Assembly (NCBI RefSeq): GCF_016889805.1
Contig: NZ_CP069535.1
Location: 1,364,001-1,428,000 of the forward strand
From: Rhodanobacter sp. FDAARGOS 1247
GTDB lineage: Bacteria > Pseudomonadota > Gammaproteobacteria > Xanthomonadales > Rhodanobacteraceae
Direction of reading: 5' to 3'
Length of the DNA stretch: 64,000 nt
The translations under genes and the position numbers were made by a program. The notes under the pieces are model-generated. The model made no database searches. It saw only the letters and a program-made list of their open reading frames with translations, and was not told the origin of the DNA. Within the stretch, counting starts at the first letter, position 1; each line of letters begins with the position of its first letter. Positions 50,568-63,225 of the stretch are shown piece after piece.

Positions 50568-53500
50568 ATGAACAATCAGGAACAGGCCCGCGCCGAACTC
50601 AGGGAACGCTTCTACCGGAGCGTGGCGGAAACCCTCGCGCTGTTGCATGCCAAGCCCGATCGCGATCGCGAAGGAGTCATGCAGACCATCGCCGGCATCC
50701 TGGCGTCGACCATGGATCTGCCGCTGGTCTGGATTGGCCGGCGCGAGTCGGCCAGCGATGCGGTCCAGGTGCTGACCGCGGCCGGCCCGGCGGCGGCTTA
50801 CGCGACGGCGCTCAAGCTCAGCGCGGATGCCTCCCACCCTGGTGGCCGTGGCCCGGTGGGCATCGTGTTGCGGCAGGAGCAGGCTCGCGCCACCTCGGTC
50901 GATGCGCCGGAGTTCCGGCCGTGGCGCGAGGCGGCACAACCCTGGGGTTTCGGCTCCTGCATCGCGGCTGCGGCGAGGACGCGCGATCATGGCCAACTGG
51001 TGCTGGTGGCCTATTCCGGTGACGGTGGCCCGAGCCTGAGCGCGGAACTGCTCGACTGGGAGCAACGGCTGGTCGATGAACTGGCCCGCTTCTGGGACCA
51101 TCACATGCTGCTCCAGCGCAGCCTGCGGATGAGCCGCTACCGCGATGCGCAGCGCACGATCCAGCGCGCGCTGCTGGAACAGCCCGATCCCGAGGCGGTC
51201 TACCGCACGCTGGCGCAGGCACTGGCCGGGATCGCCGGCGCGGCCGCGGTCGACGTGTTCGCCGCCGATGGCGAGGACGGCCTGTTGCGCCGGGTGGCCC
51301 TGGTCGGCCCGCTCGCCGAGGTCATGCTGGCCTTGCCGCTGCCGCCGCTGCGCATGGACGCCGGCGCGGTGCCGGCACCCACGCTGGCCTTCATGCAGGG
51401 CGCGCCGGTGATCCGGCGGCTGGGCGCGTCGCCGGCCGATGCCGATGTCTGCGGCGACTTGCCCGCGCACGCAGGGGCGCTGGGTTGCTGGCCGCTGTTT
51501 TCCGCGCCGAACGACACTGCCGCGATGCGGGTGCCGGCCGGCGTATTTGCCGTGGCCACCGTCGAGCCGGATGCGTTCGACGACGAGATGTGCCGCCTGC
51601 TGGACGAGATCGCCGACGCCGCCGGGCTGGCCCTGAAGCAGCATGCCCAGCGCGACGCCCTGCTGCAGGAGCAGCAGCGGCAGACCTACCTGGCCCTGCA
51701 TGACGACCTCACCGGGCTGCCCAACCGGCGCGCGCTGGATCAATACCTCGACAAGGTGCTGGCGCAGGCGCGCCGGCACTCCCGCCAGGTCGCCGTGGGC
51801 CTGCTCGACCTGGACGACCTGAAGCCGATCAACGATCTTTGCGGCCACGCGGTGGGCGATCGCATCCTGATCGAGGTGGCGAGCCGTTTTCAGCAGGTGT
51901 TGCGCGCCAACGATTACGTGGCGCGCCTGGGCGGCGACGAGTTCGTGCTGGTGTTCGGCGATCTGGAGGACGAGTCCGACCTGGACGAGCTGCTCGGGCG
52001 CGTCGACGCTGTACTGCGCCGGGCGATACGTATCGACGATGCGGTGTTTTCGGTCGCTGCCAGCCTGGGCATCGCGATGTATTCCAGCCAGACGATCGCC
52101 ACCGGCGAACAATTGCTGCGGCGCGCCGACCAGGCGATGTACCAGGTCAAGGCGCGCAAGCGCAGCCGTTCGCGCTGGTGGGGCATGGCCTTGCCCGAAG
52201 GCCAGCGGGATCACACGGTCGAGCTCGACGTGGTCGCCACCCCTTATGGCGATCATGCCGGCGACCTGCTGCAGGCCTGCCGGGAAATCTGGGAGCGCCA
52301 GCTGCCGGCGGTGGTGGAGCAGTTCCACGCCGGGTTGCGCCTGCACGAAGGCATTGCCCGGCTGCTCGACGTGCTGCCGGCGGCCGACCTGGAAACCTTG
52401 AAGCTCCGCATCCTGCAGCACCTGCAGTTCCTGTTGCGGCCGGACCTGGATGTGGACACCCATCGCAAGCGGGCCAGCCGGACCGGCCTGTTCCACGCCG
52501 GTTGCGGACTGGAGGAGGTGTGGTTGCTGGAGGCGATCGAGCAGTTGCGCGACATCCTGGCGATGCAGCTGGGCGGCAGCGGCCCGAACGATCGCCGCGC
52601 ACTGGCGATCCTGTTGCAGCGTCTTGGCATGGAGCGCCAATGGCAGCTGGAGAGCATGCGCGAGCTGCAGCGTCGCCGGGTCGCCCTGCTGGCCCGGGTG
52701 AATGCGCTGGCGTGGTCGGCCGAAGGCTATCTCGAACTGATCCAGGGCGTGGTCGATGCGCTGGTGTCGCATCGGGAAATCGCCGCCTGCGCGGTGGGCC
52801 GCCCCGACGCGTCGGGCGAGTTGACTTACGAGGCGGTGGCCGGTGTCGCCTTCGCCGAATACCTGCATGCACTGGGCACCGGCAAGGCCATGCCGATTCG
52901 GGTGCAGGCCGGCAGCCCGGACGGCGAGGGGCCGAGCGGGCGGGCCTGGCGCAGCGCGACCATCCAGCGCTGCACGCACTATGGCAGCGATCCGTCGATG
53001 CTCGGCTGGCGCGACATCGCGCTGAGCCTGGGCGTGGTTTCCAACGTGGCGATTCCGCTGTCGCCGGTGCCGGCGACGCCGGCCGTGCTGCTTACCCTGT
53101 ACAGCCCGTATGCCGGCGGTTTCCAGGGCGAGGATCAACAAGCCTTCGTCGGCCAGATCAAGAGCGTGCTCGATCTTGCGCTGGCCCGCCTGGCGCCGCC
53201 GCGGCAGGGCACCGAGCTGCTGCCGTTCTTCGTGCGCGAGCGCTGGCGTGCGCTGGTCGCGACCGACGCGCTGCAGATGCACTACCAGCCGCTGATCCGC
53301 CTGGCCGACGGCTCGGTCGGCGAGTTCGAGGCGCTGGCGCGCCTGCGCGACGACGACGGCGAGCTGCTGTCGCCGGCGCGCTTTCTTCCCGCGCTGGGCG
53401 CCGACGATCTGCTGGCGCTGTTCGGCCAGGGCGTGCGGCAGGCGCTGGCCTGCCGCGAGGCGCTGCTGCAGGCCGGCCACCCGCTGGACATGTCGGTGAA

Positions 53501-54290
53501 TGTGCCCGCGGCGGCGCTGGAGGACGTGCGCTACGCCGGGATGCTGTCCGGCCTGCTGGCCGGCAGCGGCTGCCCGCCGCCGTCACTGCTGCTGGAAATA
53601 CTCGAGTCGCCGATCGGCACCGAACACGACGTGGTGTTGCATGGCCCCGGCATGCAGTCGCTGCGGGCGCTGGGCATACGCCTGGTCGAGGACGATCTGG
53701 GCGCCGGCTACAGTTCGCTGATCCGCCTGCGCCAGTGGCCGTTCGACCGCATCAAGATCGATCAGGCCATCGTGCTGCAGGCGCGACAGGACCCGCTGGG
53801 CACCTTGCGCTTCATCCGCCAGCTGATCCGCATCGGGCACGACCTGCAACTGGAGGTGGTGGTCGAGGGGCTGGAGTCCGCCGAGCTGTTCGAGGCCGCC
53901 GCCATCCTGGGCGCGGACTTCGGCCAGGGTTATGCGCTGGCGCGTCCGATGCCGGCCGATGCGCTGGCGAGCTGGCTGGTCGGCCATCGGCATCCGCCGC
54001 GCCGGGGTGGGCCGCGAACCGGGCTCGGTGCGCTGGCCGGCGAGTTGCGCTGGGAAGAACAGTTCGTGGCGCTGCCGCCGGAGCCGGCGTTCTGGGCAAG
54101 GCATGCCGGGGGCGACTGCGATCCGGGCGAGTACCTGCACGGCGCGAACCTGGGCGCGGCGCTGAACGCGAGTCATCAGGCGATGCACGAGGCAGCCCTG
54201 GCCGGTCCGCTGGACCCGGTCTATCGCCGTCGACGCGAGGCTTTCCTCGCCCTGCTGGTCGAACACGTGCTGGATCGGGAAGCCGGCTGA
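50568..54290 (+). CDS. Large multi-sensor GGDEF-EAL cyclic-di-GMP protein
   Basis: A 1240-residue soluble protein. Reading order: GAF-like region (about 20-180), second GAF-like region (about 185-360), GGDEF domain with HDDLTGLPNRRALD and intact RLGGDEF (about 455), a helical region of about 180 residues containing RTGLFHAGCGLEEVW, a third GAF-like region (about 720-880), an EAL domain (FEALAR near 920; DDLGAGYSSL; KIDQ; VVEGLE) and a 100-residue tail. The diguanylate cyclase site looks intact. EAL motifs are partly altered (LLLEILES for the usual ELTES), so phosphodiesterase activity is uncertain. No TM helix, so it is cytosolic. Confidence 0.9.
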   Translation: MNNQEQARAELRERFYRSVAETLALLHAKPDRDREGVMQTIAGILASTMDLPLVWIGRRESASDAVQVLTAAGPAAAYATALKLSADASHPGGRGPVGIVLRQEQARATSVDAPEFRPWREAAQPWGFGSCIAAAARTRDHGQLVLVAYSGDGGPSLSAELLDWEQRLVDELARFWDHHMLLQRSLRMSRYRDAQRTIQRALLEQPDPEAVYRTLAQALAGIAGAAAVDVFAADGEDGLLRRVALVGPLAEVMLALPLPPLRMDAGAVPAPTLAFMQGAPVIRRLGASPADADVCGDLPAHAGALGCWPLFSAPNDTAAMRVPAGVFAVATVEPDAFDDEMCRLLDEIADAAGLALKQHAQRDALLQEQQRQTYLALHDDLTGLPNRRALDQYLDKVLAQARRHSRQVAVGLLDLDDLKPINDLCGHAVGDRILIEVASRFQQVLRANDYVARLGGDEFVLVFGDLEDESDLDELLGRVDAVLRRAIRIDDAVFSVAASLGIAMYSSQTIATGEQLLRRADQAMYQVKARKRSRSRWWGMALPEGQRDHTVELDVVATPYGDHAGDLLQACREIWERQLPAVVEQFHAGLRLHEGIARLLDVLPAADLETLKLRILQHLQFLLRPDLDVDTHRKRASRTGLFHAGCGLEEVWLLEAIEQLRDILAMQLGGSGPNDRRALAILLQRLGMERQWQLESMRELQRRRVALLARVNALAWSAEGYLELIQGVVDALVSHREIAACAVGRPDASGELTYEAVAGVAFAEYLHALGTGKAMPIRVQAGSPDGEGPSGRAWRSATIQRCTHYGSDPSMLGWRDIALSLGVVSNVAIPLSPVPATPAVLLTLYSPYAGGFQGEDQQAFVGQIKSVLDLALARLAPPRQGTELLPFFVRERWRALVATDALQMHYQPLIRLADGSVGEFEALARLRDDDGELLSPARFLPALGADDLLALFGQGVRQALACREALLQAGHPLDMSVNVPAAALEDVRYAGMLSGLLAGSGCPPPSLLLEILESPIGTEHDVVLHGPGMQSLRALGIRLVEDDLGAGYSSLIRLRQWPFDRIKIDQAIVLQARQDPLGTLRFIRQLIRIGHDLQLEVVVEGLESAELFEAAAILGADFGQGYALARPMPADALASWLVGHRHPPRRGGPRTGLGALAGELRWEEQFVALPPEPAFWARHAGGDCDPGEYLHGANLGAALNASHQAMHEAALAGPLDPVYRRRREAFLALLVEHVLDREAG

Positions 54291-54312: not shown

Positions 54313-54957
54313 TCATTCCGCTTGGGCGCGCTTGTTGCGGACGCGCTTCCTGCTGCCGGTGACGCGCGCGTTTTCCGGCGCTCTGATCGCTCCGGCGTCT
54401 TTCATCTGCTCCATCCACGACAAGGCGTCGAGGTAGGCCAGGAAGTGCTGGAGATAGCCGGGCGAGAGTTCGCGCATCAGGGTGAGCGAGCGATGCACCA
54501 GGCTGCCGGAATTGAGCGGGCCGGCGTTGGCCGGCACCTGCTCCAGCGATTGCCGCAGCTGGCCGCGGGCACGCACGCGCGTCCACAGGTTCCTGAATTC
54601 GCCCAGTGACTCCAGCACGGGCAGGGCCGTTAGCGCCGGCACGTTGCCGGTGGCGGCGGAGTCGGCGCGAACCGCGGCGATTTCCTCGACCAGCCGGCCC
54701 AGCGCGCCAGGCCTGGATGGCTGGGCGAATGCCGTGGCGCCGTCGGGTGCGCCTGTCGAGTGCTCGACTTCGTTCGCATAGGCATCGACCAGGCTGGCCA
54801 GCCGTTCGTCCAGCATGCGGCGCGCCGTGCCCTGCTGATTTGCCGCGTGCCGCTCCAGCGCGTCGATGAGCTGGAAGCGGACGGGGTCCAGCCGATCGGC
54901 CTGCCGCTCGCGCCACGCGTCGAGCATCGCCCGGGTTCGCGAGCAGGTATCAGTCAC
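54313..54957 (-). CDS. DUF2894-like protein, partner of a MotAB-like motor
   Basis: A 214-residue soluble, helical, charged protein. The GTG at 54957 overlaps the stop of the MotB-like gene by eight bases; an ATG at 54927 is an alternative. It carries QLIDALERHAANQQGTARRMLDERLASLVDAY, a central Gly/Ala stretch, LGEFRNLWTRVRAR, and a very basic C-terminus (GSRKRVRNKRAQ). It matches my memory of the DUF2894 proteins found beside DUF802 and DUF3348 genes. Function unknown; the basic tail might bind nucleic acid or the motor tail. Confidence 0.75.
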   Translation of the reverse strand: MTDTCSRTRAMLDAWRERQADRLDPVRFQLIDALERHAANQQGTARRMLDERLASLVDAYANEVEHSTGAPDGATAFAQPSRPGALGRLVEEIAAVRADSAATGNVPALTALPVLESLGEFRNLWTRVRARGQLRQSLEQVPANAGPLNSGSLVHRSLTLMRELSPGYLQHFLAYLDALSWMEQMKDAGAIRAPENARVTGSRKRVRNKRAQAE

Positions 54958-55588
54958 GGGGCGTGGCCGGCTGCTTCGGGATCGGCGACATCTCCACGCG
55001 CCGATTGCGCGCGCGTCCGTCCTCGTCGACATTCGGACTCACCGGCTGCTGCGCGCCGAACGCGGCGGCAAACACCGCGGAAGCGGGCAGGCCATCGGCG
55101 ATCAGGGCGCGCGTCACGGTCAGGGCACGCTGAGCGGACAGCTCCCAGTTGTCGGCGAACTGGCGATTGCCGCCGCTGATCGGCCGGTCGTCGGTGAAGC
55201 CGCTGACCATCAGGATTTCATGGCGCGAAGCGAGATACGCGGCGAGCGGCGCGGCCAGGCTTTTCAGCAGTTCGCGGCCCGCGGGTTGCAGCTGGTCGGA
55301 GTTCAGCGCGAACAGCACGCTGCCGCGGATGCCGATGCGTCCGTTGACCAGGGTGACCCGACCGGCGGCCAGCGGCACGGCCAGCGCCTGCTCCAGCGTG
55401 ATGCGGCGCTGCGCCTCGATCTGGCGCTGGCGCACTTCCTCCTGCAACTTGCTGGACAGCTGCAGCTGCATGCCGATCACGCCCACCAGGATCAGCACGA
55501 ACACGCCGAGCAACACCGACATCAGGTCGCCGAAGGCGGCCCAGATCGGCGCGCCCGTTTCCTCGACGCCATCGGTCTCCCCGCTCAT
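54950..55588 (-). CDS. MotB/ZorB-like inner-membrane protein with OmpA domain
   Basis: A 212-residue protein: short cytoplasmic N-terminus, one TM helix (IWAAFGDLMSVLLGVFVLILVGVIG, residues 15-39) with Asp21 at its start, where MotB and ZorB carry the proton-binding Asp, a helical stretch, then an OmpA-type peptidoglycan-binding domain (VSGFTDDRPISGGN ... LSAQRALTVTRAL ... ARNRRVEM). It overlaps the preceding channel gene by four bases (55585-55588). The layout is that of a stator B subunit anchored to the cell wall. Confidence 0.88.
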   Translation of the reverse strand: MSGETDGVEETGAPIWAAFGDLMSVLLGVFVLILVGVIGMQLQLSSKLQEEVRQRQIEAQRRITLEQALAVPLAAGRVTLVNGRIGIRGSVLFALNSDQLQPAGRELLKSLAAPLAAYLASRHEILMVSGFTDDRPISGGNRQFADNWELSAQRALTVTRALIADGLPASAVFAAAFGAQQPVSPNVDEDGRARNRRVEMSPIPKQPATPRD

Positions 55589-57672
55589 GCGGTTTCGGCT
55601 CCGGCGCTGGCGGCAAGCTGCTGCATCTCGCCGATGATCTGCTTCTGCGACAGCATGCTGAGGTCGATGACTTCCCTGGCCTGCGCCACGTAATAGGCCA
55701 GCTGTTCGTCACTGCGCGCCAGCGACTTGTCCAGCGCCGCCTGGATGCCGAGCAGGCGATCCAACAGCATGTCGTTGGCGGTGCCGAAGCTGTGCACCGC
55801 ACCGGCGAACATTTCGCCCAGGCTGGCCACCTCGGTCGCACTGCTGCTGACCTGGGCGGCCACCGCGCCGAGCTTGCCAGTTTCGTTTTCCACGTGCTCG
55901 GTGAAGCGGCCGCTGACCCGTTCCAGCAGGTCCGCCGAGGTGGCCACCAGTGCATCGACGGCGGTCCGCTGTTCGGTGGAAGCGTGGTTCACGGCGTCGA
56001 GCAAGGTGTCCAGCGTGGCCAGCAGGCGGCTGCGTTCCTCCAGCATGGCGTTGTCGCGGACCATGCTGTCGGACAGCTTCTGGCGCAGCTCGGCGACCAC
56101 TTCGGCCGCGGCGCGAGGCGCCTCGGAGGCCGCCTGCACCAGCCGGGAAATCTCGGCGATGGTGTCGCTGGCGTGGGCGCGGGTCTGCGCCGAGATGTCC
56201 TGCGCGGTGCTGGCCAGGGTGTCGCAGATCTGCTGCTGGCGGCTGGCGGTCTGCTCGCCTGCAAGCTCCCATTGCCGGCCCAGGGCGGCGGTCATCGCCG
56301 CGAGCTGCTCGGCCCACTGCGCCAGGCGTGCGCTGTCCCGCTGTTCCAGGGCCGTCTGCAGGTCGGCGTGCGACTGCTGCACGATGCGCACCAGCGACGT
56401 CGCGTGTTCCTCGAAGCTCGCAGCCGCACCGCTGATGGCCTGCTGGTTGCGTGCGACCAGGTTCTCGTTGGTGGCCTGCTGCGTCGACAGCGCCGTGCTC
56501 CACGCTGCCGCCGTGCTGTCCGCGGTGGCGTCCAGTCGCGCAGAGACGCTTTCGACCAGGCTGGCCGAGCGCTGCTCGAAGGTCTCGGCGAAGCGCTCCA
56601 GCGTGCGATGCAGCTCCGCGTTCAGCGCTCCGTTTGACTGGCGCTGCGCGTCCAGCGCATCGCGCCAGCGTTCCGCCAGCTCTTGGGTGCTCGCAGCGAG
56701 CCCGCTCGACACGCCGTCCAGCTGCTGCTGCACGGCCCGGCTCACGCTGTCGTGCAGCGCGGCCGTTTCGCGCGCCAGGCCCGCCATCGTGGCTTCCATC
56801 GCCGGCTGCAGCGCGGCGCCGACGGCCCTCGCGTTCGCCGCCACGCTGTCCTGCATGGCGGCCTCGATGGCAAGGGCCAGGCGCGCGTGCGTCGCCTCGG
56901 CGGCGGCGTTGAAGCTTTGCTGGCTGGCCAGTTGGCGCTCGCTGGCGGCAAGTCCCTGTTGCTCGATGGCCGTCATCATCGCCTGCAGGCGATCGACCAG
57001 CGCCGGCATCAGTTCGGTCTGTTGCTGCAGCAACTGGAACGAGGCTTCGCGCTGGTGGCTCTGCGAATGGACACGCAGGGTCGTGGCGATCTTCGTGTCC
57101 AGCGCTTGCACCGCCTGCAGGCGTTCGCGCCGGCACAGCGCGGAAAGCAGGCCCAGCATCGCCGAACTCGCCACGCCCGCGATCGAGGTGCCGAACGCGA
57201 AACCCAGGCCCTTGACCGGCGCGGCCAGCGACTCGCGGATGGCCTGCAGGTCGGTGGCGCTTTCCAGCGCCATGCCGGTGCCGCGCAGCGTCGCCATCAT
57301 GCCCAGCAAGGTGCCCAGCATGCCCAGCAACACCAGCAGGCCCACCAGGTACGGCGTCAGCACCGGCACCGGCAGGGCCACGCGGCCACCCTCGATGCGC
57401 AGGCGCGTGGCGTTGCGCAGGCTCGGGTGCAGCTCCGCGAGCCAGTCAGCCAGGTGGTCCGGCGTGGCGGACAGCCCGCTGACGGCGTGCGTCAGGGTCG
57501 AGCTGGCCTGCCGATAACGATGCAATTCCAGGGCGCCGGCCAGGTAGCACGCGGCAATCAGCGCCGCGACCGCAGCGCCCGCCGGATTGGAACCGAGATA
57601 GCCGGCGCCGATCCAGCAGACCACGGCGAGGCCTGCGCAGAACACGGCGAGGTGGAGAAAATTTCTGAACAT
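55585..57672 (-). CDS. DUF802 protein: MotA/TolQ/ExbB-like channel subunit with long coiled-coil tail
   Basis: A 695-residue protein from ATG 57672 (GGGAAG upstream). Four TM segments fall at about 5-26, 30-48, 105-127 and 152-178. The last two, with LLGMLGTLLGMMATLRGTG and APVKGLGFAFGTSIAGVASSAM, carry the MotA/TolQ/ExbB proton-channel pattern. Residues from 190 to the end are Ala/Gln/Glu-rich coiled coil with repeats of about 50 residues (ERWRDALDAQRQSN, AAWSTALSTQQATN and similar), the DUF802 repeat. This is the architecture of ZorA, a motor subunit with a long intracellular tail. Confidence 0.85.
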   Translation of the reverse strand: MFRNFLHLAVFCAGLAVVCWIGAGYLGSNPAGAAVAALIAACYLAGALELHRYRQASSTLTHAVSGLSATPDHLADWLAELHPSLRNATRLRIEGGRVALPVPVLTPYLVGLLVLLGMLGTLLGMMATLRGTGMALESATDLQAIRESLAAPVKGLGFAFGTSIAGVASSAMLGLLSALCRRERLQAVQALDTKIATTLRVHSQSHQREASFQLLQQQTELMPALVDRLQAMMTAIEQQGLAASERQLASQQSFNAAAEATHARLALAIEAAMQDSVAANARAVGAALQPAMEATMAGLARETAALHDSVSRAVQQQLDGVSSGLAASTQELAERWRDALDAQRQSNGALNAELHRTLERFAETFEQRSASLVESVSARLDATADSTAAAWSTALSTQQATNENLVARNQQAISGAAASFEEHATSLVRIVQQSHADLQTALEQRDSARLAQWAEQLAAMTAALGRQWELAGEQTASRQQQICDTLASTAQDISAQTRAHASDTIAEISRLVQAASEAPRAAAEVVAELRQKLSDSMVRDNAMLEERSRLLATLDTLLDAVNHASTEQRTAVDALVATSADLLERVSGRFTEHVENETGKLGAVAAQVSSSATEVASLGEMFAGAVHSFGTANDMLLDRLLGIQAALDKSLARSDEQLAYYVAQAREVIDLSMLSQKQIIGEMQQLAASAGAETA

Positions 57673-57682
57673 GACTTCCCGG

Positions 57683-58390
57683 TTAGCAGGTGCGAAGGGC
57701 TGCAAGCAGACCTTCGACGGGTTGAAAACGAACATCCAGTTCGGCGAGCAGCACGCTCTGCCGGTCCTGGCGAAAGACCTCCAGCCAGGCGCCAGGCGAG
57801 GTCGGGGTGGCCTGCGCCGAGGCAGCCTGGTGCAGGCGCTCGAAGTGTTCCCCGAGCAGGGCAGGCACGTGGGCCAGCAGCGACTGCTCGCGCGGGCTCA
57901 GCGCCGCTTCCATGGCGGCGTCCACGGCCGCCAGTCGCGCCATCGCGACCGACTTCCCGGCCAGCGTGTCGCGCAGGCGGCCGCGCAGCTCGCCGGTGGC
58001 AGCCTGCATCGACCGCTGCAGGGACAGATGGCGCTGACGGAACATCGGGTAGTCGACGGCTTCCGATGCATCGGCTTCCCCCGCCTCGCCGCCGGCGCGC
58101 CGCGGCGGGCCGGCCGGCACGCGGTCGCCGACGATGGTGCCGGCCAGCGAGCGGCGTATCCGGGTGCATTCGCGCTCCTCGCTGCCTGAGTCGTGTGCGC
58201 CGGAGTCGGTCGCGGCAGGCTTCCCGTCGAGCGCGGTGGACAGGGCAATCGCGTGGCTCCAGTCCAGCCACCGGCCCAGGTGGTCGGCGAGCGATGGCGG
58301 GGAGGGCGGAACGTCGGCGTCCACCAGGTTCGCCAGCAGGCGAATGAACGTCGGGCCATGGATCGGGGGCCGTTGAGGAGCTTGCACCAT
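57683..58390 (-). CDS. DUF3348-like protein, first gene of the motor operon
   Basis: A 235-residue soluble protein starting at ATG 58390. Visible features are GPTFIRLLANLVDADVP with DHLGRWLDWSHAIALS at the N-terminus, a Gly/Ala/acidic low-complexity middle (about residues 70-120) and a helical C-terminal half (YPMFRQRHLSLQRSMQAA ... LGEHFERLHQ ... LLAELDVRFQPVEGLLAAL). It agrees with my memory of DUF3348. It is followed after ten bases by the channel gene. No enzymatic motif is visible; a cytosolic adaptor is the simplest guess. Confidence 0.75.
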   Translation of the reverse strand: MVQAPQRPPIHGPTFIRLLANLVDADVPPSPPSLADHLGRWLDWSHAIALSTALDGKPAATDSGAHDSGSEERECTRIRRSLAGTIVGDRVPAGPPRRAGGEAGEADASEAVDYPMFRQRHLSLQRSMQAATGELRGRLRDTLAGKSVAMARLAAVDAAMEAALSPREQSLLAHVPALLGEHFERLHQAASAQATPTSPGAWLEVFRQDRQSVLLAELDVRFQPVEGLLAALRTC

Positions 58391-58561
58391 GCGTTTCGCT
58401 TGAGAAAACCGCCAGTTTACATGCTGCCGGGGCCGCGGCTGTCGCCGCGATCCGTGCTGCGGTGATGGGCCCGGTGGATGTCTCGTGCGCAAGCGAAAGA
58501 AGCCATCGCTGCAGATGGCTTCAGATGAATCAGGAGGTGGCGGGCGAGGCGGGGACCGTTG

Positions 58562-58582
58562 TGCGACACCTGCCGTATGAAG
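58562..58582. repeat. Partial duplicate of the adjacent tRNA-Val gene
   Basis: Twenty of 21 bases (TGCGACACCTGCCGTATGAAG) match the tRNA-Val gene at 58703-58723, covering the anticodon stem-loop and variable region, in the same orientation. The single difference lies in the anticodon loop. The rest of a tRNA is not preserved. Confidence 0.7.
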
Positions 58583-58677: not shown

Positions 58678-58752
58678 TGGTGGGCGATGCAAGGATCGAA
58701 CTTGCGACACCTGCCGTGTGAAGGCAGTGCTCTACCGCTGAGCTAATCGCCC
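58678..58752 (-). tRNA. tRNA-Val (anticodon CAC)
   Basis: On the minus strand the 75-base cloverleaf has acceptor arms GGGCGAT/ATCGCCC, D-arm AGCTCAGCGGTAGAGC, anticodon stem CTGCC/GGCAG with loop TTCACAC, T-arm GTTCGATCC, and an encoded ACCA end. The anticodon CAC reads GUG codons. Confidence 0.96.
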
Positions 58753-59231: not shown

Positions 59232-62012
<2,781 letters not shown>

Positions 62013-62016
62013 GCTG

Positions 62017-62139
62017 TTGCTCCCTCCCCTGCGTGCAGGGGAGGGTTGGGGAGGGGTAAGGCTTTTGATCTGGTTTTTGAGACGGAAGTCAAAAGCGTGA
62101 CCCCCACCCAACCTCCCCCTGCAAGCAGGGGGAGGAGCG
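62017..62139. repeat. Paired GC-rich palindromic repeat (doublet) between the two metH genes
   Basis: Left stem CCCTCCCCTGC/GCAGGGGAGGG (62022-62045, GT loop) and right stem CCTCCCCCTGC/GCAGGGGGAGG (62112-62135, AA loop) flank a spacer with CTTTTGATC and TCAAAAGCG. The left stem contains the ribosome binding site of the downstream metH gene. Confidence 0.92.
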
Positions 62140-62148
62140 ACGGTGCGT

Positions 62149-63225
62149 TCATGCGGCCTCCGCGTCACGCGCAGGCAACGTCCTTGGCGCGCAATCGCGC
62201 ACAGCTTCGGCGATCGCCTTGATGTGCGCCGGCGTCGTCCCGCAACAGCCACCGACCAGGTTCAGCAAACCATCGCGGGCGAAGCTGCCGATCACGCCGG
62301 CCATGTGTTCGGGTGTTTCGTCGTATTCGCCGAAGGCATTGGGCAGGCCGGCATTCGGGTGCGTGCTGACGTAGCTTTCGGCGAGGTTGGCCAGGGTCTG
62401 CACATGCGGGCGCAGGTCCTCGGCGCCCAGTGCGCAGTTGAAGCCCACCGACAGCGGGCGCGCATGGCGCACCGAGTAGTAGAACGCTTCCGCAGTCTGA
62501 CCCGAGAGCGTGCGACCGGAGCGGTCGGTGATGGTGCCGGAGATCATCACCGGCAGGCGCGCCCCGCGCTGGTGGAACAGTTCGGCGAGGGCGAACAGCG
62601 CGGCTTTCGCATTCAGCGTGTCGAAGATCGTCTCGACCATGATCACGTCGGCGCCGCCGTCGATCAGGCCATTGGCGGACTCGGTGTAGTTCGCCGCCAG
62701 TTCCTCGAAGGTGACGTTGCGGAAGCCGGGATCGTTGACGTCGGGCGACAGCGAGGCGGTGCGGCTGGTCGGGCCGAGTACGCCGATCACGAAGCGCGGC
62801 TTGTCCGGGGTCTTCGCGGTCATCGCATCGCAGGCGGCGCGGGCCAGCTTGGCGCCTTCGAGATTCAATTCGCGCGCCAGGTGCTGCAGGTGATAGTCGG
62901 CCTGGCTGATCCGGGTGGAGTTGAAGGTGTTGGTTTCGATCAGGTCGGCGCCGGCTTCGAGATAAGCGTCGTGCACGCCGCGGATGATGTCCGGCCGGGT
63001 CAGCGTGAGCAGGTCGTTGTTGCCCTTGAGGTCGCAACTGCCGGCGTGGTCGTGCGCGTGGCCATCGTGTCCGTGTTCGAAGCGTTCGCCGCGGAAGCCG
63101 CTTTCGTCCAGCTCGTGTGCCTGCAGCATGGTGCCCATGCCGCCGTCGAGGATCAGGATGCGCTGGCGCAGTGCGTGCTCCAGCAAGGCGACGCGTTCGG
63201 GGTGGAGCCAGGGGAGGGTGCTCAT
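62149..63225 (-). CDS. Methionine synthase, homocysteine S-methyltransferase part (first metH gene)
   Basis: A 358-residue (beta/alpha)8 barrel that binds zinc and homocysteine. The zinc cysteines appear in VGFNCALG and VGGCCGTTP, with DGGMGTMLQ at the N-terminus and the conserved [10 protein letters not shown]. Before that motif there is an unusual His-rich stretch ([14 protein letters not shown], about residues 49-62). It ends 137 bases before the second metH gene. Separate genes for the two halves are normal in Xanthomonadales, so this is not a broken gene. Confidence 0.95.

Follow-up and report, generated by a model that had tools for sequence, protein, structure and literature searches.

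Zorya anti-phage systems of types I and II are built around a membrane motor, for which the ZorA5ZorB2 assembly, peptidoglycan binding by ZorB, the ZorB aspartate and the ZorA tail are given as shown or needed in the available text of PMC11890865; type II also needs the nickase effector ZorE, which is recruited by ZorAB (PMC11890865). Zorya type III was defined and tested against phages in 2021 with a system of Stenotrophomonas nitritireducens (PMC8565338), and the literature that we searched yielded no structure or mechanism for this type. Here, we describe a four-gene operon in a 64,000-nucleotide stretch of Rhodanobacter sp. FDAARGOS 1247 (NZ_CP069535.1, positions 1,364,001 to 1,428,000; hereafter the window, whose numbering is used throughout). 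Its four minus-strand open reading frames (ORFs), at 54313-58390, encode in order a DUF3348 protein, a channel subunit, a MotB-like protein and a DUF2894 protein. The operon is very probably a Zorya type III anti-phage system that shares the motor principle of its relatives, identity and principle taken jointly. This is a known kind of defence system, and the interest lies in a start element upstream of the first gene and in the stepwise tail of ZorA. New here are that element, ZorA tails that appear to have grown by tandem in-frame units, and the basic C-terminus of the DUF2894 protein.

A first-pass annotation of this DNA had proposed a ZorA/ZorB-type motor with two soluble partners, possibly a defence system lacking ZorC, ZorD and ZorE, and had regarded its function as unknown and the system as unclassified. 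The motor is borne out by PADLOC models and by a profile match to the solved ZorA chain 8vvn_C, and the defence system without those three proteins turned out to be Zorya type III. The view of the system as unclassified and of unknown function did not survive, the type having been named and phage-tested in 2021 (PMC8565338).

Assignment to Zorya type III

The PADLOC models for Zorya type III match all four proteins over nearly their full length (Table 1). The genes are spaced by +10, then -4, then -8 bases along the operon, and the ORF coordinates agree here with the annotated 10-base gap and overlaps of 4 and 8 bases. The start of zorA was taken as the ATG at 57672; a longer ORF reaching 57735 would overlap the DUF3348 gene. 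The phage-tested locus of S. nitritireducens is part of our comparison set (L200), and its best-segment identity to the window is 49% for DUF3348, 51% for ZorA, 70% for ZorB and 42% for DUF2894. At the locus, zorC, zorD and zorE were not found beside zorAB by a Pfam and PADLOC scan of the four operon proteins and by inspection of the next genes. The names ZorF and ZorG are swapped between sources: DUF3348 is ZorF and DUF2894 is ZorG in the available text of the papers (PMC8565338, PMC11890865), whereas the model names in PADLOC-DB 2.0.0 (PDLC00652-PDLC00658) have DUF3348 as ZorG and DUF2894 as ZorF.

The comparison set holds 95 sequences, that is, the window and 94 loci gathered with DUF3348 as query (three are second copies from the same genomes). 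The four genes stand in the same order on one strand in 91 of the 95, and the other four (L155, L162, L224, L100) hit a contig end. The 4-base zorA/zorB overlap is present in 85/90 and the +10 gap before zorA in 67/90. An order-wide scan gave a test of co-occurrence that is independent of the loci gathered with DUF3348: DUF3348 and DUF2894 were detected in the identical 90 of 299 genomes (lists compared by eye), 85 of which also had a DUF802 match. The joint occurrence of the four genes, suggested as a check when the locus was annotated, is upheld by both counts. Separately, the L155 contig is binned as Acidobacteriaceae and carries a DUF3348 gene 57% identical to that of the window, with an upstream stretch very like Burkholderiaceae (transfer or binning error). 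The DUF2894 profile also exceeded its cut-off in the Corynebacterium glutamicum control genome, far from other matches.

Motor, tail and soluble partners

Four hydrophobic segments in the window ZorA (residues 5-23, 32-50, 109-127 and 158-176), followed by a tail of ~500 residues, match the four transmembrane (TM) segments and the long tail annotated earlier. A profile of the ZorA core (residues 1-260, 32 sequences) matches 8vvn_C at 4.4e-5 over 109-185, which is the agreement of the TM core with ZorA that had been asked for; T121, T162, S163 and S170, kept in at least 97% of sequences, align with polar residues of that chain. The Pfam MotA/ExbB family gave no match to the channel protein at E 0.1, where only DUF802 (whole-protein E 1.3e-27) and a sub-threshold apolipoprotein match appeared. 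We place ZorA among the kin of the MotA/ExbB family because of the PADLOC ZorA models and the 8vvn_C profile match; the MotA/TolQ/ExbB kinship first proposed thus stands by way of ZorA, and its direct Pfam counterpart does not.

ZorB has a strong hydrophobic segment at 22-40, immediately preceded by Asp21, and a second, weak segment within the OmpA domain (PF00691) at 161-179, in line with the annotated aspartate at the start of a TM helix and peptidoglycan-binding domain. Asp21, whose conservation had been named as a check, is invariant in 91/91 sequences (window included; three are second copies from the same genomes), and so are W16, F19, L22, M23, L26, L27 and G28. ZorB matches 8vvn_B at 3.4e-4, and MotB/PomB chains score better.

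Conservation along ZorA is uneven: the pore (101-125, 151-175) averages 0.92-0.93, the middle tail (326-475) averages 0.56-0.67, and residues 501-575 and 651-675 return to 0.86-0.91; in this profile zorA starts too far downstream in six loci (L154, L186, L191, L198, L204, L215). Lengths, gaps and self-similarity were computed with corrected starts, lengths being unsure for L211 (1 kb between zorA and zorB), L208 (277 bases before zorA) and L217 (broken zorA). Of 88 distinct full-length ZorA sequences, 37 measure 690-701 residues, 49 are longer than 705 (maximum 1229) and two are shorter (625 and 662). In the 13 long sequences checked, the main added stretch falls at a single position, following window residue 362 or 473. 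Among the 37 short forms, the best self-identity over 60 residues at a fixed offset reaches at most 27 (median 20). Of the 49 long forms, 42 score above this value; the other seven (L219, L174, L193, L201, L209, L227, L216) stay within the short-form range. Unit lengths follow lineages: Paraburkholderia, Caballeronia, Cupriavidus, a Pandoraea bin and one Dyella have units of 87 residues, most Achromobacter have 131, Xanthomonas has 62 (or 124), Stenotrophomonas 102 and Luteimonas 84, and units of 51 and 40 occur elsewhere. The weaker cases are Xanthomonas (self-identity 32-42) and Stenotrophomonas (31-33). Examples of long tails are L173, L192, L156 and L223.

These patterns suggest that lineages extended their ZorA tails with tandem in-frame units of their own, 40-131 residues long, while pore and tip were conserved, and we read the tail as a rod of free length joining the pore to a docking tip. 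The periods 40, 51, 62, 84, 87, 102 and 131 can be composed of units of 11 residues together with one to three heptads, an arithmetical fit that chance might also give, and period 103 (L211) does not fit. Natural ZorA proteins that span 625 to 1229 residues while sharing one conserved pore and tip offer a handle on whether the tail acts as a passive lever or as a measured reach.

With regard to the soluble partners, AlphaFold2 gave an all-helical model of DUF3348 (predicted local distance difference test, pLDDT, 85; predicted template modelling score, pTM, 0.80). Pfam, NCBIfam and PDB profile searches found no nuclease or other enzyme family in either protein. Net charge over the final 25 residues of DUF2894 has a median of +6 (window +6; at least +4 in 87/90), as against -2 for the remainder of the protein; over the final 25 residues of DUF3348 the median is 0. 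Between the window and its sister species (L076), the ratio of nonsynonymous to synonymous substitution rates is 0.16 for zorA, 0.12 for zorB, 0.48 for DUF3348 and 0.43 for DUF2894.

By homology, type III probably shares the motor mechanics of types I and II. ZorA (probably five copies) and ZorB (two) would form an ion-driven motor in the inner membrane, with ZorB tethered to peptidoglycan through its OmpA domain. Disturbance of the wall during phage DNA entry may open the ion path through Asp21, so that ZorA turns and sends movement or a change of shape along its bundled tail, the conserved tip of which would engage the DUF3348 and DUF2894 proteins. The proton as the ion, and a signal down the tail to these two proteins, are proposals for type III. 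Because neither soluble protein shows a nuclease or other enzyme family, DUF3348 is pictured as a helical adaptor on the tail and DUF2894 as a nucleic-acid-binding arm, whose basic C-terminus might block or trap incoming phage DNA near the membrane. These two roles, taken together, are tentative, and we infer them with more doubt than confidence.

The lack of an enzyme family is equally what would be expected under the chief rival, an ion leak in which infection opens the ZorAB channel, the membrane potential collapses and the cell stops, DUF3348 and DUF2894 being gatekeepers or sensors and not effectors. The type III paper, in its available text, likewise proposes both soluble proteins as regulators of ZorAB (PMC8565338). 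However, a long tail whose tip is conserved would be superfluous for a mere leak, DUF2894 ends in a basic stretch that suggests contact with nucleic acid or membrane, and the dependence of type II on a recruited ZorE effector (PMC11890865) points the other way. We consider the leak unlikely.

The start element upstream of the DUF3348 gene

A conserved element, TGTAAA(A/C)T or a close variant followed by 4-8 free bases and a run of 3-7 T, precedes the DUF3348 gene in 91 of 92 distinct loci under a loose pattern and in 83 of 92 under a strict one; upstream of DUF3348 in L104 it was not seen. It begins a median of 31 bases before the start codon (quartiles 29-32). No -35 box accompanies it: four or more matches to TTGACA occur in 3/91 loci and in about 10% of shuffles, and the resemblance is no closer than in shuffled sequence. 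In the window genome (3.92 Mb), the TTTT-containing pattern occurs once, at 58405-58421. Within families f1 and f2 of the order, it is found in 71 of 90 genomes with DUF3348 and in 13 of 64 without (Fisher 3e-13), as a hand tally in which positions of matches are mostly not listed and the 145 genomes of f3-f12, which lack DUF3348, are left out. The element lacks specificity in families f3-f12, where many genomes have several matches and a reversed control pattern gives equal numbers. It is also kept upstream of the DUF3348 gene across Beta- and Gammaproteobacteria (L148-L227).

The TAAA(A/C)T part resembles what we take to be the consensus -10 hexamer, and the T-run would then presumably lie near the transcript start. 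Promoters that stutter in response to uridine triphosphate (UTP) carry a T-run near their first transcribed bases, where that of the start element would also fall, and reiterative transcription occurs at pyrBI and codBA. The Zorya III start site might accordingly be imagined as a -35-less promoter with a transcript starting at 3-7 U, where stuttering would tie expression to the UTP pool, which phage infection would disturb; we regard this as improbable. Part of the same improbable reading is a motor tail that serves as a ruler, lengthened by lineages in whole coiled-coil units. If both were true, Zorya III would sense wall and nucleotide pool together.

It is quite possible, with chances we rate somewhat short of even, that the element serves an unlinked host regulator as its operator and is no special transcription start, the T-run being part of the binding site; such a role would be compatible with the other explanations. 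The near-universal retention of the element while the surrounding bases vary would suit an operator, as would the missing -35 box and the fact that the cassette holds no additional gene in loci with the usual spacing. Against this, the hexamer is presumably -10-like with the T-run close to the expected transcript start, the narrow distance to the start codon suits a transcription start, and a host regulator with a single site in its own genome would have nothing else of the same form to bind.

Our literature searches returned no paper joining Zorya with reiterative transcription and, among the matches listed, none joining reiterative transcription, phage defense and UTP. During phage infection of Burkholderia cenocepacia, expression changes in Zorya I and Zorya III were confined to the first gene or the first two, and the available text does not place Zorya III among the systems that its authors single out as active (PMC12584637).

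Distribution, insertion sites and known systems

DUF3348 was detected in 15 of 45 Rhodanobacter genomes and not in the other 30, nor in 209 of the 299 genomes of the order. In the rest of the class, 8 of 369 genomes were positive, four of them from our own order. Of the 90 genomes of the order that are positive, 89 have one copy; G289 shows an additional partial match below the cut-off. The 14 Rhodanobacter loci with usable flanks occupy eight neighbourhoods, or seven when L097 and L106, whose upstream flanks are similar in part, are merged. In the wider set, 86 upstream flanks fall into 59 groups and 87 downstream flanks into 51, at one similarity threshold of our choosing. Plasmid matches comprise 27 records, 20 of which are called non-mobilizable; those among the matches listed (20 of 27) are replicons of 0.59-3.2 Mb from Caballeronia, Paraburkholderia and Burkholderia.

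The window operon sits between tRNA-Val(CAC) and a GGDEF/EAL gene, and in sister genomes (e.g., G043, G004, G019, G009, G028, G020) the same flanks are only ~80-640 bases apart. tRNA-Val(CAC) is an integration hotspot with attachment-site (att)-like copies. Other cargo at this site (stretches L077-L095 and L111-L114) includes integrases above the Pfam cut-off in L079 and L092 and one below the cut-off in L083. L079 and L111 carry terminases, and L080 has a RelE-type toxin with a helix-turn-helix partner. Plain genes also occur, among them those for a peptidase in L094 and for a Wzt_C protein in L087. In 15 of 28 stretches the 3' half of the tRNA is present in additional copies, most of them running from tRNA position 30 onwards; the copy is short in L087 and degenerate in the window. 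Within the four-gene cassette, no integrase was found. In some Rhodanobacter genomes (e.g., G028), the tRNA-Val 3' half and the terminator behind it repeat in units of ~126 bases. L194 and L220 have a downstream flank similar to that of the window, but without a tRNA there.

Several observations weigh against a defence motor with a DNA-binding arm. The window ZorA scores 33.2 bits with NCBIfam NF033915 (antiphage_ZorA_2), below the curated cut-off of 100, and its single-sequence search of PDB gave no match. PDB profile searches found no convincing solved relative of DUF3348 or DUF2894, and the helical model of DUF2894 has low global confidence (pLDDT 79, pTM 0.48); the possible DNA-binding role of DUF2894 is argued from charge. 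Phage protection in print, in the available text, concerns the S. nitritireducens relative (PMC8565338), the window operon being known from its sequence. Phage-borne cargo was considered and rejected, with no match in viral_contigs or phages. Defence-island enrichment, another check suggested at the outset, is weak: 96 of 143 neighbour proteins from 12 Rhodanobacter copies were scanned and matched 13 PADLOC families, one amino-acid transporter model accounting for four proteins and the other 12 (AbiLi, AriA, a type II nicking enzyme, etc.) for one each, several of these matches possibly falling on one and the same protein. Several species also share one site within each of Xanthomonas, Achromobacter, Paraburkholderia and Caballeronia, which fits a resident role.

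The shared sites, the few defence genes around the Rhodanobacter copies and the single copy in nearly every positive genome would all be natural for a housekeeping envelope machine that maintains wall or membrane and was labelled defence through its ZorA/ZorB resemblance, the other option of the first-pass annotation. This role is disfavoured because presence is patchy and sites are many, seven or eight among 14 loci of one genus. The phage protection printed for the relative (PMC8565338) also speaks against it. So does a tree of ZorA core and ZorB (85 rows, quick method), in which S. nitritireducens and S. acidaminiphila are joined by Rhodanobacter sp. PCA2 (L219) (Shimodaira-Hasegawa-like approximate likelihood ratio test 100), a placement that may reflect a binning or assembly error in a draft genome. 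We therefore judge a housekeeping role very improbable.

Table 1 Features of the Zorya type III locus and its upstream flank, in window positions.
Feature	Positions	Strand	Evidence
zor gene 1, DUF3348 protein, 235 aa	57683..58390	-	PF11828 7.7e-84; PADLOC ZorG3 2.9e-91
zorA, 695 aa, four-TM MotA/ExbB/ZorA-type channel subunit with long tail	55585..57672	-	PADLOC ZorA3 E 0, 1179 bits
DUF802 repeat 1, ZorA tail	56554..56712	-	PF05650, contig positions 1420554-1420712, 7.3e-17
DUF802 repeat 2, ZorA tail	56389..56547	-	PF05650, contig positions 1420389-1420547, 2.7e-15
zorB, 212 aa, TM helix with Asp21 and OmpA-type peptidoglycan-binding domain	54950..55588	-	PADLOC ZorB3 7.1e-113; PF00691 2.2e-18
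zor gene 4, DUF2894 protein, 214 aa, GTG start, basic C-terminus	54313..54957	-	PF11445 7.6e-60; PADLOC ZorF3 2.3e-74
Start element TGTAAACT-N5-TTTT, 31 bases upstream of first ATG	58405..58421	-	Pattern conserved across loci
tRNA-Val(CAC), hotspot flank	58678..58752	-	ARAGORN and Rfam; insertion site in sister genomes
Degenerate partial copy of tRNA-Val 3' half, att-like remnant	58540..58582	-	blastn-short match of tRNA positions 30-50 at 58562-58582; remainder extended by eye

Downstream of the operon, the flanking gene at 50568-54290 (+) encodes a GAF-GGDEF-protoglobin-GAF-EAL protein, with a second adjacent copy in some sister genomes (e.g., G013, G018, G039). It was rejected as a system component, being a flank that persists where the operon is absent. 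Upstream lie tRNA-Val, a LAB_N protein and metH, a cobalamin-dependent methionine synthase split into two ORFs at 59232-63225 (-), one with the homocysteine methyltransferase half and one with the pterin/B12/activation half.

For Zorya type III, the start element found once in the genome, the natural series of ZorA lengths and the basic arm of DUF2894 provide testable handles. The closest described system is that of S. nitritireducens DSM 12575 (L200), which shares with the window the four proteins, their order on a single strand, the -4 spacing of ZorA/ZorB, the first gap of +10 and the start element, but has a ZorA of 798 residues with a weak 102-residue repeat where the window has 695. Flagellar MotA/MotB and PomA/PomB have in common with the window system the OmpA domain and TM aspartate of the B subunit, and ZorB matches MotB and PomB chains; the window ZorA, however, stands apart from the A subunits in its missing Pfam match and its long tail. 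Zorya types I and II resemble the window system in the ZorA/ZorB motor, the aspartate in the ZorB TM helix, the OmpA-type ZorB domain and the long ZorA tail, with weak profile similarity, and differ in their soluble partners, which are ZorC/ZorD or ZorE there and DUF3348 and DUF2894 in the window.

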